Below, one piece after another: positions 5,918 through 48,804 of a DNA stretch of 64,000 bases. Each line of letters starts with the position of its first letter. Within the stretch, counting starts at the first letter, position 1. Source of the stretch: Epilithonimonas vandammei (GTDB lineage Bacteria > Bacteroidota > Bacteroidia > Flavobacteriales > Weeksellaceae); contig NZ_CP034161.1 of the NCBI RefSeq assembly GCF_003860525.1, positions 1,550,001 through 1,614,000 of the forward strand, written 5' to 3'. The notes under the pieces were generated by a model that was not told where the DNA came from, made no database searches, and saw only the letters and a list, made by a program, of their open reading frames with translations. The translations under genes were made by a program, and so were the position numbers.

Positions 5918-6277
5918 TTATTTCTTACCTCCGTAAGCTTTATCTTTGATTCTAGCTTTCTTACCTCTAAGGTCTCTGAAGTAGTAGATTCTAGCTCTTC
6001 TAACTTTACCTTGTCTGTTAACTTCAATTTTCTGAAGTGCAGGCATGTTGATAGGGAAAACTCTTTCTACACCTACATCACCAGACATTTTTCTGATAGT
6101 AAATGTTTTTGTAAGTCCAGTTCCTCTCAATTGGATAACAGTACCTTTGAAGAACTGAGTTCTAGTTTTGTTACCTTCTTTAATTTCTGTGTACACAGTG
6201 ATGGTGTCACCGGCTTTGAATTCTGGGAATTCTTTTTTCGTAATGTACTTGTCTTGTACGTACTTTAATAAATCCAT
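5918..6277 (-). CDS. rplS: 50S ribosomal protein L19
   Basis: The 119-residue protein aligns over its whole length with L19, which sits at the subunit interface of the ribosome. Recognisable segments are PEFKAGDTITVYTEIKEGNKTR, the RGTGLTKTFTIRKMS block and the C-terminal basic VRRARIYYFRDLRGKKARI block. It is transcribed alone, with its own promoter (6353-6382) and terminator (5863-5894), and not together with trmD or rpsP as in many other bacteria. The leader of about 70 nt may be regulatory. Confidence 0.97.
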   Translation of the reverse strand: MDLLKYVQDKYITKKEFPEFKAGDTITVYTEIKEGNKTRTQFFKGTVIQLRGTGLTKTFTIRKMSGDVGVERVFPINMPALQKIEVNRQGKVRRARIYYFRDLRGKKARIKDKAYGGKK

Positions 6278-6346
6278 TTTTTATAATAAAAAATTTGTTT
6301 TGTCAAGCTAAGCAACATTCACGTCCTTCGTCAGAGGTTGATTAAC
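6278..6346 (-). promoter_or_regulatory. Candidate structured leader of rplS (possible Flavobacteriia L19 leader)
   Basis: The roughly 70 nt between the rplS promoter and start codon are less AT-rich than neighbouring gaps. They contain nested pairing potential: CAAC with GTTG enclosing ACG(AAGG)ACGT on the minus strand. Ribosomal-protein leaders have been proposed for L19 in Flavobacteria, but I recall that from memory and cannot test the covariance model, so this is a candidate only. Confidence 0.4.
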
Positions 6347-6944: not shown

Positions 6945-7059
6945 TGGAGCTGTTTCCCGCTGTCCACTATATCTTTTTTGGCATTGCGAACAAAATGAAG
7001 TCATCTTTACAACATTTCCCCGCAATGCCAAAAAAGGATGCCGTTCCCATCGGGGCTAG
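6945..7059. repeat. Palindromic repeat family C/E, copy C1
   Basis: Begins CCGCTGTCCACTATATC and ends GATGCCGTTCCCATCGGGGCTA, with an inner inverted repeat TTTTTTGGCATTGCG/CGCAATGCCAAAAAA. A shorter relative is at 40832-40893, and the E-type copies at 49354, 55489 and 60484 have the same general layout. Confidence 0.7.
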
Positions 7060-7112
7060 GGCATTTGTCATAAATTTGCATTTTGTCATCAGAATAAGAT
7101 TAACATATATTT

Positions 7113-7140
7113 TGTCATTCCGTAGGAATCTCAACTATAG
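7113..7140. repeat. Palindromic repeat family D, partial copy
   Basis: GTCATTCCGTAGGAATCTCAA is one arm of the GTCATTCCGnnG...CnnGGAATGAC family seen complete at 21481-21554, 42310-42370 and 49479-49524. The second arm is missing here. Confidence 0.6.
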
Positions 7141-7210
7141 TTGATAAATACATTTAAAATATTGCATTTAAAATCTGCAAAATCCGCATAATCAGCGAGA
7201 AAAAAATAAC

Positions 7211-7303
7211 TCATTATCTCTTAGCTGAGCAAAGCGCCTTTGCGAACCTTAAAATATTTTCAATAAAGAACAAAAATCTTTGCGCACTTTGCGTTCAAAA
7301 AAA
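7211..7303. repeat. Intergenic repeat family B, copy 2
   Basis: Contains CTTTGCGAACCTTAAAATATTTTCAAT and CTTTGCGCACTTTGCG, aligned with the copies at 4361, 41041 and 45744. Confidence 0.72.
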
Positions 7304-7317
7304 CTAATAGCCATTTA

Positions 7318-7487
7318 GAGCCTGTTTAAAAATAATTAAAACCACATAGTCACATAGAAAAACTCAAGATTAATTGCAAAAAAGAAAAAATAGAAGTACA
7401 ATATTTACTATTTTTTCTCTTATTTTTCCAAAAACTATGTGTCTATGTGGTTATAAAATTATTTCTGATACAAATTTAAACAGGCTC
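7318..7487. mobile_element. MITE, copy 1 (170 bp, identical to 47674-47843)
   Basis: Non-coding element beginning GAGCCTGTTTAAA and ending TTTAAACAGGCTC, flanked on both sides by TTA, which looks like a 3-bp target duplication. The interior is a long imperfect palindrome containing CCACATAGTCACATAG and CTATGTGTCTATGTGG. The second copy, 40 kb away, is identical base for base. There is no transposase gene, so it would need one in trans. The short terminal repeats and TTA duplication suggest the IS5 superfamily, which is inference. Confidence 0.8.
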
Positions 7488-7516
7488 TTAATAACAAGAA
7501 ATATAACTATTTCCCT

Positions 7517-7524
7517 TAACTTTG
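7517..7524 (+). promoter_or_regulatory. -7 box of the metal ATPase gene
   Basis: TAACTTTG matches TAnnTTTG and lies 19 bp before the ATG at 7544. No TTG is found at the usual -33 distance, which falls within about 10 bp of the MITE end, so the insertion may have replaced the upstream half of the promoter. Confidence 0.5.
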
Positions 7525-7543
7525 TTTAGAAACATTACAAATT

Positions 7544-9490
7544 ATGGCAAATTGTAGTAGCGGCTGTTGCGGAACAGATGACCATCAAGAAGAACATTCT
7601 CATCAACATAATCACGACGACCACGACCATTCTCACAGCAGTTCAAAATTAGGATTGATTATAAGTCTCGTTATATTTTTCTCAGGACTTATTTTAGATT
7701 TCTGGATTAAAGCAGATTGGTTTACTAGTAGCGTTTGGTTAAGATTTGGATGGTATTTCGTGTCTTATATATTAGTAGCATTTTCAGTTTTCAAAGAAGC
7801 AGTTGAGCTGGCAAAGAAATTAGATTTCTTCAATGAGTTTTCTTTGATGGGAATCGCAACAATCGGAGCATTTGCTATCGGCGAATTTCCGGAAGGTGTT
7901 GCTGTAATGCTGTTTTATACGATTGGTGAAATGTTTCAGGAATCCGCAGTCAACAGAGCACGGAATAATATCAAAGCATTATTAGATGTTCGTCCAAAAG
8001 AAGCCACCGTTTTTCGAGACGAAAATTGGAAAACCATTGCTCCGAGCGATGTCAAAATTGGAGAAAAAATTCAGATAAAAGTGGGAGAGAAGATTCCGTT
8101 GGACGGGATTTTATTATCTGAAAAAGCAAGTCTCAATACATCAGCTTTAACAGGGGAAAGTAAACCTTCGTCAATCCAAAAATCGGAAGAAGTTCTTGCC
8201 GGAATGTTGAACCTCGACCAAGTCATCGAAATCGAAACAACCAAATTATTCGAAAATAGTTCAATTGTAAGGATTCTTCAAATGGTTCAGGACGCAAGTT
8301 CCAGAAAAGCCAAAACCGAATTATTTATCAGAAGATTTGCAAAGATTTATACACCAGTTGTTTTCCTTTTGGCACTTTTGGTAACGCTGGTTCCGTATCT
8401 TTTTGTTGAGAATTATGTTTTCAAAGATTGGCTTTACAGAGGTTTGGTTTTTCTCGTAATTTCTTGTCCGTGCGCTTTAGTTATTTCGATTCCTTTAGGA
8501 TATTTTGGTGGAATTGGCGCTGCTTCCCGGAATGGAATTCTTTTCAAGGGTTCCAATTTTATAGATATCATTTCCAATGTAACAACGGTTGTGATGGATA
8601 AAACAGGAACATTGACCAAAGGTGTTTTCAAAGTTCAGGATATTGTTCCGGAAAATATTTCGAAAGAAGATTTTTTATCAATTCTATCTTCTGTTGAAAG
8701 CCATTCTACACACCCGATTGCCAAAGCGATTTCTCAGTTTCATCCGGCCAGTAAAATACCGGATTCTGTTGAGGAAATTTCAGGTAAAGGAATCAAAGCT
8801 TTAGTTGATGATAAGAATGTTCTTGCCGGCAACACAAGTTTACTACAATCCTTCGGAATTCCATACCCCAAAGAGCTAGATAAAATTGTGGAGACAACAG
8901 TTGTTTTAGCCATTGATAACGAATACAAAGGTTACATCACAATTTCCGATGAGGTGAAGGATGATGCTGAGCTTGCGATTAATAATCTTCATAAAGCAGG
9001 TGTCAAAACAATGATGCTGAGCGGCGATAAAGATTCATTGACACAAAGTATCGCTAGAAAGCTAGGAATTGATTCTGCATTTGGAGGGCTCCTTCCGGAA
9101 GGTAAAGTGGAAAAGCTTGAAGCCCTCAAGAAAAATCCGAAAGAAGTGGTTGCTTTTGTGGGTGATGGGATCAATGATGCACCGGTTTTAGCATTAAGTG
9201 ATGTGGGAATGGCAATGGGAGGTTTGGGCTCAGATGCGGCAATAGAAACTGCGGATGTCGTGATTCAGACAGATCAACCATCGAGAATTTCTACGGCAAT
9301 AAATATTGGAAAAGCAACCAAGAAAGTCGTTTATCAAAATATAGCTCTTGCTTTCGGAGTAAAAATTATTGTATTAATATTAGGTGCTGGTGGGCTGGCA
9401 AACATGTGGGAAGCTGTTTTTGCAGATGTCGGAGTAGCGTTGCTGGCTATACTAAATGCTGTGAGAATTCAGAATATGAAATTTAAATAA
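7544..9490 (+). CDS. Zn/Cd/Pb-translocating P1B-type ATPase
   Basis: Inner-membrane heavy-metal exporter of 648 residues. The N-terminus has no HMA fold; residues 1-35 are instead a Cys/His-rich metal-binding tail (CSSGCCG, then many His and Asp). Then follow the actuator TGES (203-206), the transmembrane metal site SCPCALVIS with CPC at 308-310, the phosphorylation site DKTGTLTKG (D352), the class-typical HP dipeptide in SHSTHPIA, and the hinge GDGINDAPV near 540. The CPC motif with a histidine-rich tail indicates divalent Zn/Cd/Pb rather than Cu. No metalloregulator gene is adjacent. It stands alone downstream of the MITE. Confidence 0.92.
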   Translation: MANCSSGCCGTDDHQEEHSHQHNHDDHDHSHSSSKLGLIISLVIFFSGLILDFWIKADWFTSSVWLRFGWYFVSYILVAFSVFKEAVELAKKLDFFNEFSLMGIATIGAFAIGEFPEGVAVMLFYTIGEMFQESAVNRARNNIKALLDVRPKEATVFRDENWKTIAPSDVKIGEKIQIKVGEKIPLDGILLSEKASLNTSALTGESKPSSIQKSEEVLAGMLNLDQVIEIETTKLFENSSIVRILQMVQDASSRKAKTELFIRRFAKIYTPVVFLLALLVTLVPYLFVENYVFKDWLYRGLVFLVISCPCALVISIPLGYFGGIGAASRNGILFKGSNFIDIISNVTTVVMDKTGTLTKGVFKVQDIVPENISKEDFLSILSSVESHSTHPIAKAISQFHPASKIPDSVEEISGKGIKALVDDKNVLAGNTSLLQSFGIPYPKELDKIVETTVVLAIDNEYKGYITISDEVKDDAELAINNLHKAGVKTMMLSGDKDSLTQSIARKLGIDSAFGGLLPEGKVEKLEALKKNPKEVVAFVGDGINDAPVLALSDVGMAMGGLGSDAAIETADVVIQTDQPSRISTAINIGKATKKVVYQNIALAFGVKIIVLILGAGGLANMWEAVFADVGVALLAILNAVRIQNMKFK

Positions 9491-34694: not shown

Positions 34695-35864
34695 ATGAAG
34701 GGTTTTAATTTTCTGAAACGGATAAACAGTTGGGTCGTATATTTTATAATGACCGCCATCGTCTTTGGAATTTCCGTTTCTTCTTTCCTGATGATAGACC
34801 AATTACGTAAACAAGAGATTCAGAAAATCAACTTGATTGCAACAGCGCTCAAGGCTTACACAGACGATGAAATTTCTGCCGACCCGAAAATTCAGGAATT
34901 ATATCTCGCTGTGATGCAGGATAATACCAATCTTCCAATAGTAGTAACAGACAAAAAGAAAAATCCGATTTTCCAGGCTAATATTCCTCCGAATATAGAA
35001 CAGGACTCTATAAAGCTGAAAAATCTGATCAGGAAAATGGAGAATTCTTATGAACCTTTCGTTGTAGAACTTCCGTCCGGAGAAAATCAGTATATTTATT
35101 ACGATAACTCAGATTTGCTGAATTATTTTCGGTATTATCCATACATTTTAGCCTTATTCATCGGTGCCTATTTGCTTTTTTCTTTTTGGTTTCTAAGAAC
35201 GCTTAAAAAAACCGACGAAGGTTTTGTTTGGGCGGGTCTTGCAAAAGAAACAGCGCACCAGATTGGAACGCCATTGTCATCAATGATTGGCTGGGTCGAG
35301 ATTATGAAGCTGGAAGATGAAAATGGATTAGGCGTGAAAGAATTGGAGATGGATGTCAATCGTCTCAAAACCATTTCCGAACGTTTTTCTAAAATAGGTT
35401 CCATTCCCGAACTGACGGATCTTGATATCAATGAAACAATTCAGCAAAACTTTGATTACCTGAAAAAAAGAATTTCAACAAGAGTCAATTTTACGTTGAG
35501 AAAAACATACGAGCCGGTTTTGGTTCCTCATAGCAGGATTTTGATGAGTTGGGTGATTGAAAATCTCGTAAAAAATGCGGTAGATGCAATGAAAGGTGAA
35601 GGCAAACTGGAATTGTCACTTTACAAAAAAAACAAAAATATTTATATCGATGTGACGGATACAGGAAGCGGAATGACCAAGCAACAGATCCGAAACGCTT
35701 TCAAACCTGGATTTTCTACCAAAAAACGGGGTTGGGGTTTGGGTTTGTCTTTAACGAAAAGAGTAGTGTCAGAGTATCACAAAGGCGATGTGAGAATTGC
35801 AAGTTCCGAGCTTGGAAAAGGAACGACTTTTAGGATTATTTTGAAGGAAGAGCAGAAATCTTAA
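34695..35864 (+). CDS. Sensor histidine kinase (orphan)
   Basis: 389-residue membrane kinase. Two membrane segments (about 13-34 and 147-167) enclose a periplasmic domain of roughly 110 residues. The HisKA-like dimerisation helix has AKETAHQIGTPLSSMIGW with H188 as phosphoacceptor. The ATPase domain has the N-box ENLVKNAVDAM, G1 DTGSGM, F-box FKPGFSTKKRG and G2 GLGLSLTKRV. No response regulator gene lies beside it. The signal sensed is unknown. A family F repeat follows its stop codon. Confidence 0.9.
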   Translation: MKGFNFLKRINSWVVYFIMTAIVFGISVSSFLMIDQLRKQEIQKINLIATALKAYTDDEISADPKIQELYLAVMQDNTNLPIVVTDKKKNPIFQANIPPNIEQDSIKLKNLIRKMENSYEPFVVELPSGENQYIYYDNSDLLNYFRYYPYILALFIGAYLLFSFWFLRTLKKTDEGFVWAGLAKETAHQIGTPLSSMIGWVEIMKLEDENGLGVKELEMDVNRLKTISERFSKIGSIPELTDLDINETIQQNFDYLKKRISTRVNFTLRKTYEPVLVPHSRILMSWVIENLVKNAVDAMKGEGKLELSLYKKNKNIYIDVTDTGSGMTKQQIRNAFKPGFSTKKRGWGLGLSLTKRVVSEYHKGDVRIASSELGKGTTFRIILKEEQKS

Positions 35865-35870
35865 TCTTAA

Positions 35871-35960
35871 AAACCACATAGGCACATAGTTTTTGGGCTA
35901 AGGATAAATAGCTTTCTATTTTCTACTTTTTTAATTTTATCCTATGTGTCTATGTGTTGA
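35871..35960. repeat. Palindromic repeat family F, copy 2
   Basis: AACCACATAGGCACATAG pairs with CTATGTGTCTATGTG about 50 bp later. Matches the core of the MITE without its terminal repeats. Confidence 0.72.
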
Positions 35961-40777: not shown

Positions 40778-40831
40778 ACAGATTTTTTATTTTTTTTAGG
40801 AGCAACAAGATTGGTCCTTCGGTTCACTATT

Positions 40832-40893
40832 CCAACCCGCTGTCCGCTATATCTTTTTTTTGCAAAAAAGGATGCCGCTACCATCGGGGCTAT
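40832..40893. repeat. Palindromic repeat family C/E, copy C2
   Basis: CCGCTGTCCGCTATATC at the left and GATGCCGCTACCATCGGGGCTA at the right, with inner TTTTTTTTGCAAAAAA. Shorter version of the element at 6945-7059. Confidence 0.7.
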
Positions 40894-41040
40894 GTTGAGG
40901 TTTTGTCTTCTTTCTCAACCGATTTTTAAAACCTTACAAAATTAGTTTAAAAAAGACAAAAATGTTACAGAATACGAAATTCAAAATATGATATTAATTC
41001 TTTGATGAGCGTCAGTGTCTTTATCTCCTATATTTATTAT

Positions 41041-47067: not shown

Positions 47068-47084
47068 TTATAAAAAAATGAAAA

Positions 47085-47585
47085 TTATTTGGCTTTCATT
47101 TTCTCAAGTGTATTATTGTAAGCTTCTTTAGTATCATCTGCTGCTTTCTTGCTGGCTGTTTTTGCATCTTGTGTTGTTTTATTGATGGCTTCTTTGGTAT
47201 CATGAGCAACATCTTTCATATCTTGTTTGGCATTTTCAGCAGCAACTTTGGTTTTGTCTATAGCCTGATCTACTCCTTCTTTAGCATCTTGGGCGGCATT
47301 TCCCACTGCTGCTTTTGCATTGTCCCAAGCTGTATTAGCATCAGCTAAGGCTTTTCTGGAAGCAGCTTCAGCATCTTTATCACCTTTTTTGATGGCTGCA
47401 TCCAGGTCAGCTTGAGCTTTGTCAACAGCAGCTTTCGCTTCTACTTCCGTCAAAGGTTTTGTTTCCGTGGTCACTACGGCCTAGGTATCTTTGTTAGCAT
47501 CGGTAACAACAGTTTCTTCTTTTTTTGTACAAGATGTTGCTAAAAATAATCCAGCTGCGGAAGCTGTTAATAAGATTTTTTTCAT
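47085..47585 (-). pseudogene. Ala/Lys/Asp-rich lipoprotein gene with an early amber codon
   Basis: From the ATG at 47585 the frame gives a lipoprotein signal (MKKILLTASAAGLFLATSC) and KKEETVVTDANKDT, then TAG (47481-47483, codon 35), then AVVTTETKPLTEVEAKAAVDKAQ and about 120 more in-frame residues to 47085. CAG to TAG, restoring DTQAVV, is the simplest explanation. The rest is a long low-complexity helix of 11-residue-like repeats (DAKEGVDQAIDKTKVAAENAKQDMKDVAHDTKEAINKTTQDAKTASKKAADDTKEA), similar to LEA-like or apolipoprotein-like stress proteins. A GTG at 47474 could restart translation but without a lipidation signal. Base-call error is possible. Confidence 0.78.
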
Positions 47586-47673
47586 TGTAAGATTTTATTT
47601 TGATTAAATAATTTTAGATAGATGTAAATATAACAATTTGAAGCCTATTTTAAAAATAAATTTTATGGATTTA

Positions 47674-47843
47674 GAGCCTGTTTAAAAATAATTAAAACCA
47701 CATAGTCACATAGAAAAACTCAAGATTAATTGCAAAAAAGAAAAAATAGAAGTACAATATTTACTATTTTTTCTCTTATTTTTCCAAAAACTATGTGTCT
47801 ATGTGGTTATAAAATTATTTCTGATACAAATTTAAACAGGCTC
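47674..47843. mobile_element. MITE, copy 2 (170 bp, inserted at the 3' end of the EamA gene)
   Basis: Identical to 7318-7487, again with TTA on both sides and GAGCCTGTTTAAA terminal inverted repeats. Its right end overlaps the end of the minus-strand transporter gene and supplies the last residues and stop codon. Confidence 0.8.
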
Positions 47844-48804
47844 TTATACATTTTCGTATTATTCTGGACTTCAACATCCCTGGTTTGTAGTTGATAATAA
47901 AAACACCGCTGATGATAAGTGCTGTAGCAATAATGAATTTTGCAGAAATTGTTTCCCCGAGGATCAGCCAGCTCAAAAAAATACTGATAATTGTATTAAC
48001 ATAAGACAAAATCGAAACCTGCGTTGGGAGCAATGTTTTTAATAAATAATTATAAGCAAAAAACGCCAACACAGAACCGAAAATTGCCAAATAAATAATA
48101 GCTGAAATACTTTTTACAGACCAAGCTGAAACATCAATCGTATCGAAAAATGTGAACGCCAAAATCAACTGAACAATCCCAGCCCAAGCAAATTGGTAAA
48201 ATAAATTAAGGAAAAGATTATTGTTTTGAACGTGCAATTTTTTTGTGTAAATCGTTCCGATTGCCCAGCAAAGTAATGCTAAAATCATCACAATCAATCC
48301 ATTTCTGTAATCCGGATTGGCCAATTCGCTCAAACCGTCCCAAAAGATAAAAACAACACCGAAAAAACCCATCAACAGGCCAATCAAAGTTCTGATGGTG
48401 AATTTTTCCATTCCGATAATAATACTTCCAATAAAGATAAAAACTGGAGAAAGTGCACTGATTAAAGAAGCTAAACTACTGGTCAGATTTTTTTCTGCAA
48501 CCGTTGTCAAACCATTGGCACCAATTAAAAGTAATGATGATAAAGTCAATTGAATTCTAAAATTCTTCCAACCAATCCATTTTAGATTTTTTGTAAATAG
48601 TAAAATTGGCAATAAAATCAATGAAGCTAAAAACTGACGAAATCCTGCAACAAACCAAGGCGGAACAGTTTCCACTCCGATTTTTATACCAAGGAAAGTA
48701 GTTCCCCAAACGACGGCGACAATGCAAATAGCGATAATAATTTTGGAATTCAAACCAGAAAATATAAGTAACAAAGATATTTCAAAAACTTCGCTTTTAC
48801 GCAT
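47815..48804 (-). CDS. EamA/DMT-family transporter with C-terminus rewritten by a MITE
   Basis: Inner-membrane carrier of about 310-329 residues with ten predicted helices in two EamA repeats (ICIVAVVWGTTFLGIKIGVETVPPWFVAGFRQFLAS at the first, IVMILALLCWAIGTIYTKKL at the second, and SILSYVNTIISIFLSWLILGE near the end). The substrate is unknown; relatives export amino acids or metabolites. The last eight residues ACLNLYQK and the TAA lie in the MITE, so the original tail after KPGMLKSRIIRKC was replaced, which is unlikely to disturb the membrane core. The start is uncertain: ATG at 48804, or TTG at 48753 giving NSKIIIAIC, which has a TATCTTTG box 18 bp before it. Confidence 0.85.
   Translation of the reverse strand: MRKSEVFEISLLLIFSGLNSKIIIAICIVAVVWGTTFLGIKIGVETVPPWFVAGFRQFLASLILLPILLFTKNLKWIGWKNFRIQLTLSSLLLIGANGLTTVAEKNLTSSLASLISALSPVFIFIGSIIIGMEKFTIRTLIGLLMGFFGVVFIFWDGLSELANPDYRNGLIVMILALLCWAIGTIYTKKLHVQNNNLFLNLFYQFAWAGIVQLILAFTFFDTIDVSAWSVKSISAIIYLAIFGSVLAFFAYNYLLKTLLPTQVSILSYVNTIISIFLSWLILGETISAKFIIATALIISGVFIINYKPGMLKSRIIRKCIRACLNLYQK

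Follow-up and report, generated by a model that had tools for sequence, protein, structure and literature searches.

The 170-bp unit that occurs twice in the window (the whole stretch of DNA analysed here, 64,000 nucleotides, corresponding to positions 1550001-1614000 of the single-contig genome of Epilithonimonas vandammei, 3,276,391 bases, labelled G000 below) is very probably a non-autonomous MITE of the IS5 family. The unit is short (170 bp), non-coding and multicopy (13 copies in the chromosome), and its window copies are bounded by perfect 13-bp terminal inverted repeats (TIRs). It is flanked by target-site duplications, for which empty sites exist in relatives, and its ends match those of an autonomous element, namely an IS whose ends were found in the genomes G003, G005 and G007, the helper itself not being found in the chromosome of G000. 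We posit that an IS5-family transposase would bind both ends and move the 170-bp unit in trans, that this helper may have been lost from the chromosome or may reside on an unseen replicon, and that the interior would be a cargo palindrome, existing also without these ends in other Bacteroidota, that was once enclosed by the ends of an IS.

Structure and surroundings of the window copies

Copy 1 (7318-7487, plus strand) sits between divergent genes, and copy 2 (47674-47843, plus strand) is located at the 3' end of an EamA-family transporter gene. The initial annotation had described the two as the same base for base, which holds over their full length (100% identity over 170/170 bases, E 2.1e-84 each), and it had also drawn the borders correctly: both copies begin with GAGCCTGTTTAAA, end with TTTAAACAGGCTC and have TTA at either side. 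The left and right target-site duplicates of copy 1 occupy 7315-7317 and 7488-7490, and the flanking triplets of copy 2 lie at 47671-47673 and 47844-47846. In copy 1 the left TIR, GAGCCTGTTTAAA, spans 7318-7330 on the plus strand, and the right TIR spans 7475-7487 on the minus strand. When the window was scanned with the perfect 13-bp repeat, exact matches were obtained only at the two ends of each copy, four in all, together with one further match with 2 mismatches. We can see no special meaning in the 40-kb distance between the two copies.

Between the TIRs, folding predicts a core palindrome with the outer arms CCACATAGTCACATAG (7342-7357) and CTATGTGTCTATGTGG (7435-7450) and an inner stem made of AAGAAAAAATAG on its 5' side (7382-7393) and CTATTTTTTCTC on its 3' side (7408-7419), all on the plus strand. 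Most of the 5' side of the inner stem is predicted to pair with the 3' side, and an equivalent stem is present in copies of the core that are devoid of IS5-type ends, termed core-only copies in the following. The long palindrome that had been claimed for the element is thereby recovered, in that the single strand is predicted to form one long, imperfect hairpin. The RNA fold of a copy reaches -51.3 kcal/mol, where shuffles average -19.1 (z -9.4; 0 of 200 shuffles equally stable), and the DNA fold of the MITE strand compared with shuffles gives a z of -8.8.

Downstream of copy 1, a gene for a P-type (E1-E2) ATPase (7544-9490, plus strand) starts 56 bp from the end of the element. The EamA-family ORF next to copy 2 (47815-48804, minus strand) has its final 29 bases, including the stop codon, inside the element. 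Several further features were observed in the surroundings. The segment immediately to the left of copy 1 (7219-7303, containing CTTTGCGCACTTTGCGTTC) belongs to a dispersed repeat, to which each of the six genomes searched has several matches. Two matches to Flavo-1 RNA (RF01705), which is a hairpin repeat of Flavobacteriia, exceed the gathering score (6949-7061 and 40829-40895, both on the minus strand), and an L19-Flavobacteria ribosomal protein leader is present at 6313-6340 (minus strand), upstream of ORF 5918-6277. A lipoprotein-like ORF that adjoins copy 2 (47082-47585, minus strand) contains an in-frame TAG after residue 34.

Copy number and target sites in the chromosome

A genome-wide count of copies had been proposed on the basis of the two in the window. 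A search of the chromosome with the 170-bp query returned 32 matches, and the genome does hold more copies: 13 matches cover at least 165 of the 170 bases at 88-100% identity, and these near-full-length copies are distributed over 11 sites. Three of them are identical, the third being located at genome 1082246-1082415, two show 99% identity, one 96%, two 94% and five 88-89%. Three copies form a tandem array with a period of 220 (genome 1285981-1286589), whose orthologue comprises two copies with that same spacing in G011 and at least one copy in G017.

The 3-bp flanks match at 10 of the 11 sites, although two of these 10 (1983453 and 3156879) were read with decayed ends. Five of the matching sites have TTA, three have TAA, the array has TGA, and site 1919162 has ATA, which is not TNA; at site 1503017 the flanks differ (TAA/TCA). 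Within the IS5 family, the IS1031 and IS427 groups are characterised by a short TNA duplication and a transposase composed of DUF4096 and DDE, and the MITE resembles these groups in its duplicates, which conform to TNA (TTA, TAA or TGA) at 9 of the 11 sites, the other two being the ATA site and the mismatched pair. TIR matches with at most 2 mismatches occur at 98 places in the genome versus 105 for the reversed control, and there is thus no surplus of solo ends. Degenerate TIR pairs of MITE size were seen at 1277628-1277816 and 3156479-3156641.

Empty and occupied sites in related genomes

For 9 of the 11 sites, the flanks were joined with one triplet left between them and searched in six genomes of the genus, and 14 pairs were aligned. 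Empty sites with a single triplet, which the initial annotation had suggested looking for, are present in related genomes. Site 1774452 is empty in G011 (98.7% over 381 columns, single TAA) and site 1919162 is empty in G017 (95.3% over 381 columns, single ATA), with clean junctions in both cases; the latter site is occupied in G011. Window copy 1 is absent in G017 (87%) and G011 (88%), each of which has a single TTA with indels near the junction. Site 1082246 lacks the element in G009 (81%), where a single TTA with small indels nearby is found, and site 1774452 is also empty in G017 (90%), where the triplet reads TAC. The element is absent from the place of window copy 2 in five relatives and from site 2255452 in three, at junctions too diverged for the duplicated triplet to be read. 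Sites 1983453 and 3156879 and the array, on the other hand, are occupied at the orthologous places in G011 and G017. This mix of filled and empty orthologous sites implies that insertions took place before and after the species split, or that some copies were precisely lost.

One orthologous pair differs in the core. At genome 739036, G000 carries a full copy where G017 has a 44-bp element with the same TAA flanks that consists of the two ends and lacks the core. We read the 44-bp element as a core deletion; the reverse, in which a core entered an element that consisted of the ends alone, seems less likely to us.

An IS with the same ends in sister genomes

The relation to the IS5 superfamily had first been drawn from the TIRs and the 3-bp duplication, with the proposal to search for an IS with the same repeats. 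We searched 23 genomes of the genus with GAGCYTGTTTRAA; G005 and G007 proved to have many such ends near the ends of contigs. Among the 17 of 24 places in these two genomes that were fetched, 16 run into IS sequence up to the contig end; one locus (L267) was left out, being a different sequence without a TTA/TAA flank. With the addition of two G003 ends (L287 and L289), 18 IS ends were read from the three genomes, and TTA or TAA precedes every one of them. The left end of the IS starts with GAGCCTGTTTAAAAAT and the right end with GAGCCTGTTTAAATTT, and the ends of the MITE carry these same 16 bases each: the left TIR plus the next three bases of the MITE is the left end of the IS, and the right TIR plus the next three bases, read on the minus strand as GAGCCTGTTTAAATTT, is its right end. 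The 16 bases shared by IS and MITE differ between the left and the right end.

One type of IS end leads into the N-terminus of a transposase (PF13340, E 1.2e-18) and the other into a transposase C-terminus (PF13586 and PF01609), all three domains scoring over their cut-offs on the two fragments. Both fragments also match NF033580, 'IS5 family transposase', below the whole-protein cut-off, each being a fragment. The IS places found sit at or near contig ends, with no complete IS within one contig among those read, and the two transposase pieces are assumed to be parts of one element. This IS is like the MITE in its identical 13-bp TIR, its 16 end bases and its TTA/TAA flanks; it is unlike the MITE in that it encodes a transposase, and the interior parts that were read share nothing with the MITE beyond the ends by eye. 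The placement in the IS5 superfamily is now backed by IS5-family transposase fragments behind these ends in 3 of the 23 genomes of the genus.

Matches to the C-terminal piece and to PF13340 occur in these three genomes (G003, G005 and G007), with 0 in the other 20, G000 among them. A helper among the PF01609 loci of G000 was considered and rejected: G000 has 46 PF01609 matches, and the 30 PF01609 loci read (17 in G000, the others in two further genomes) have no facing TIRs within 2 mismatches. Facing TIR matches with 3 mismatches at the PF01609 loci L089, L100 and L112 were taken as chance, as was the one facing pair with IS-length spacing found in G000 (1082246 to 1083456, 1.2 kb), which is made up of the end of a known MITE copy and a 2-mismatch match. 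The helper may be elsewhere or lost, and with G000 represented by one contig an unseen plasmid is possible. Viral contigs contained neither the core palindrome nor a relative of the helper. The best plasmid relative of the helper (62% identical over 89% of the fragment) is located on an Emticicia plasmid, looks broken and has a GAGGCTGTTTAAATTTTATTCAAT end; a more distant relative (48%), on a plasmid of Bacteroides fragilis, has the ends GAAACTGTTTTGA/GAAGCTGTTTTGA with TTA at both sides.

The core palindrome beyond the element

The interior of the MITE has no likeness to the IS and is a palindrome of the CACATAG type, CCACATAGnCACATAG...CTATGTGnCTATGTGG. Within the family, 13 of 296 genomes contain the pattern CCACATAGnCACATAG-N50..80-CTATGTGnCTATGTGG, compared with 0 for the reversed control pattern, and it occurs in at least 120 stretches of named genomes. 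The 80 stretches listed are all from Bacteroidota by name, among them Epilithonimonas, Chryseobacterium, Saprospiraceae, Chitinophagaceae, Cyclobacteriaceae, Algoriphagus and Leadbetterella. The window itself holds a core-only CACATAG palindrome without IS5-type TIRs (35874-35957, no strand assigned), part of which matched the MITE query (L025). It starts 9 bases past the stop codon of ORF 34695-35864, which we take to be a histidine kinase by its look. No Rfam family matched the MITE in the window or the cores of the seven loci scanned, and the MITE and its core differ from Flavo-1 RNA in that neither matched RF01705 at these places.

Both IS5-type ends within 3 mismatches were seen at 3 of the 70 named core loci that were classed, and 67 of the 70 have no pair of ends. 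In our view, the core is a repeat in its own right, around which IS ends came to lie at some time in the past. The opposite course, in which the core would have started as the interior of an ancient IS5-type MITE and the core-only copies would be old MITEs with decayed ends, concerns the origin of the core and does not compete with the MITE reading; we consider it possible, if on the unlikely side. Room for it is left by the gradation seen among 54 distinct copies in which both arms are exact; these were drawn from the first-listed places of the family scan and the MITE loci of the chromosome and stem, in all but two cases, from the window's genus. Both TIRs are present within 3 mismatches in 11 of the 54 (control repeat 0) and with at most 8 mismatches over both in 21 (control 3), in some copies a single end can be recognised where its distance from the core would place it, and the rest have little or nothing. 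Against decay stands the finding that arms and ends change about equally often in orthologous MITE copies (variable columns: arms 7/128, ends 5/104, flanks 61/786). This comparison of arms and ends gives no sign of purifying selection on the arms of the MITE copies, so that conserved arms alone do not account for the many exact-arm copies without a trace of ends. The 67 of 70 classed loci without a pair of ends and the quite different flanks of the cores in Saprospiraceae likewise speak against decayed ends and for an independent core.

In one Saprospiraceae assembly, the flanks of some core-only copies (L151, L157, L187 and L200) are, by eye, locus-specific inverted repeats, which lengthen the palindrome past the CACATAG arms.

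The same ends also enclose other interiors. In G012 and G003, a second family of about 145-150 bp contains a palindrome of the CCCTAAAGGG type; the third element, found in G017, is 182 bp long and has CACAAAG-type arms. Fragments of CACAAAG-type arms (CTTTTGTGACTTTTGTGG) adjoin MITE copies in the window's genome as well, in the left flank of L008 and the right flank of L013; for the L008 fragment, the matches listed include several in G017 and one in G011.

It is very improbable that the 170-bp unit owes its spread to a Y1 (RAYT-type) transposase, as a palindrome of the REP/BIME kind with incidental TIRs. Such an origin would agree with the occurrence of the core palindrome without TIRs in other Bacteroidota and with the presence of Y1_Tnp (PF01797) matches in 12 of 12 genomes searched, but the unit is sharply bounded by IS5-type repeats, has 3-bp duplicates and is missing from empty sites, and HUH enzymes do not make 3-bp duplicates with such ends. 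Moreover, the CACATAG double arm was found within up to 1.5 kb at 0 of the 30 Y1_Tnp loci read (35 matches listed). A single heptamer lies near 4 of the 30, and four of the Y1_Tnp loci contain no inverted repeats. For the core-only copies alone, a RAYT origin is conceivable, though the Y1_Tnp loci read lend it no support. The core-only form is like REP/BIME in being a dispersed intergenic palindrome with a preference for gene 3' ends, and unlike it in that no linked Y1 transposase was found and that the sequence is not known to be related.

Placement and pairing of core-only copies

Gene context was assessed on the 80 listed of at least 120 stretches, of which 70 were classable and 67 core-only. 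Core-only copies lie between convergent genes in 23 of 67 cases versus 29 of 226 other gaps of the same loci (Fisher p 1.8e-4), a comparison in which many loci come from few assemblies and are not independent and in which ORFs follow a simple longest-ORF rule. In tandem gaps, 24 of 35 core-only copies are closer to the upstream stop than to the next start (p 0.04). We infer from this placement that core-only palindromes may act at gene ends. The 13 TIR-bearing MITE copies tested (the 11 sites of the own genome, one copy of G011 and one of G017) are distributed over 1 convergent, 7 tandem and 5 divergent gaps, and no intrinsic terminator was found near copy 1 (0 in 7100-7700). The preference of core-only copies for gene 3' ends would also suit the least probable reading, that all copies are immobile, conserved regulatory or terminator hairpins resembling a MITE, which is hardly credible for the 170-bp unit given that its TIR-bearing copies do not share this placement (1/13 convergent), are polymorphic between species, with empty sites that contradict immobility, and vary alike in arms and TIRs.

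Pairing was assessed in 30 of 39 core-only sequences, which were chosen by hand; their arms are exact by the way in which the copies were found, and the inner stem alone is informative. In the inner stem, 86% of cells pair. Its covariation score is 0.066 versus 0.038 (sd 0.006) in shuffles, with 0 of 500 as high, and 17 cells are altered on both sides versus 9.4 in shuffles (1 of 500). Two other covariation measures are not above shuffles, and with the partners slid by one column the values are still 0.057 and 14 cells. The covariation of the inner stem is therefore suggestive only.

Beyond the MITE reading itself, we offer a broader and distinctly speculative proposal. Palindromes of the host genome may have been enclosed, more than once, by the ends of one IS5-family IS (CACATAG here, CACAAAG and CCCTAAAGGG in sister genomes) and carried along to other places as ready-made 3'-end signals, and CACATAG may represent a phylum-wide class of hairpins with a mover and a role of its own.

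Comparison with known elements and implications

IS5-type MITEs with unrelated interiors are already known from Porphyromonas gingivalis, and the present element is ordinary in kind, a conclusion that is well supported. In that species, several MITEs have the ends of IS5-family ISPg elements around interiors that are unrelated (PMC4596501). The MITEs named there (BrickBuilt, MITE464/PgRS, MITE239 and MITE700) are, like this one, non-autonomous and present in roughly 10-20 copies, and their ends resemble the TIRs of ISPg elements, e.g., GAGACTGTTGCA of ISPg4; in both cases several families have similar ends and different, unrelated interiors. They differ in other respects: BrickBuilt and MITE464/PgRS contain tandem repeats, whereas this MITE contains an independently occurring palindrome; BrickBuilt duplicates vary in length, whereas those of this MITE are 3 bp long and mostly TNA; and the P. 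gingivalis genome contains matching ISs, whereas the helper of this MITE was not found in the chromosome. In other reports, a MITE of Cardinium was compared with ISCca4, listed as IS982 (PMC9769881), and Amoebophilus was described as having elements of the IS1031 and IS427 groups, 893 and 860 bp in length and lacking direct repeats (PMC3196728).

In the open literature searched for the CACATAG repeat and for MITEs or palindromic repeats of Flavobacteriia, Epilithonimonas and Chryseobacterium, we found no description of the element. Less ordinary than its kind is its cargo, a palindrome that is spread across the phylum. The element also provides a testable case of a MITE with a likely helper that is present in sister species and was not found in the chromosome of the host. 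The core could represent a class of 3'-end signals spread over the Bacteroidota, and if IS ends repeatedly enclose hairpins, such insertions could be portable terminators rather than neutral debris.
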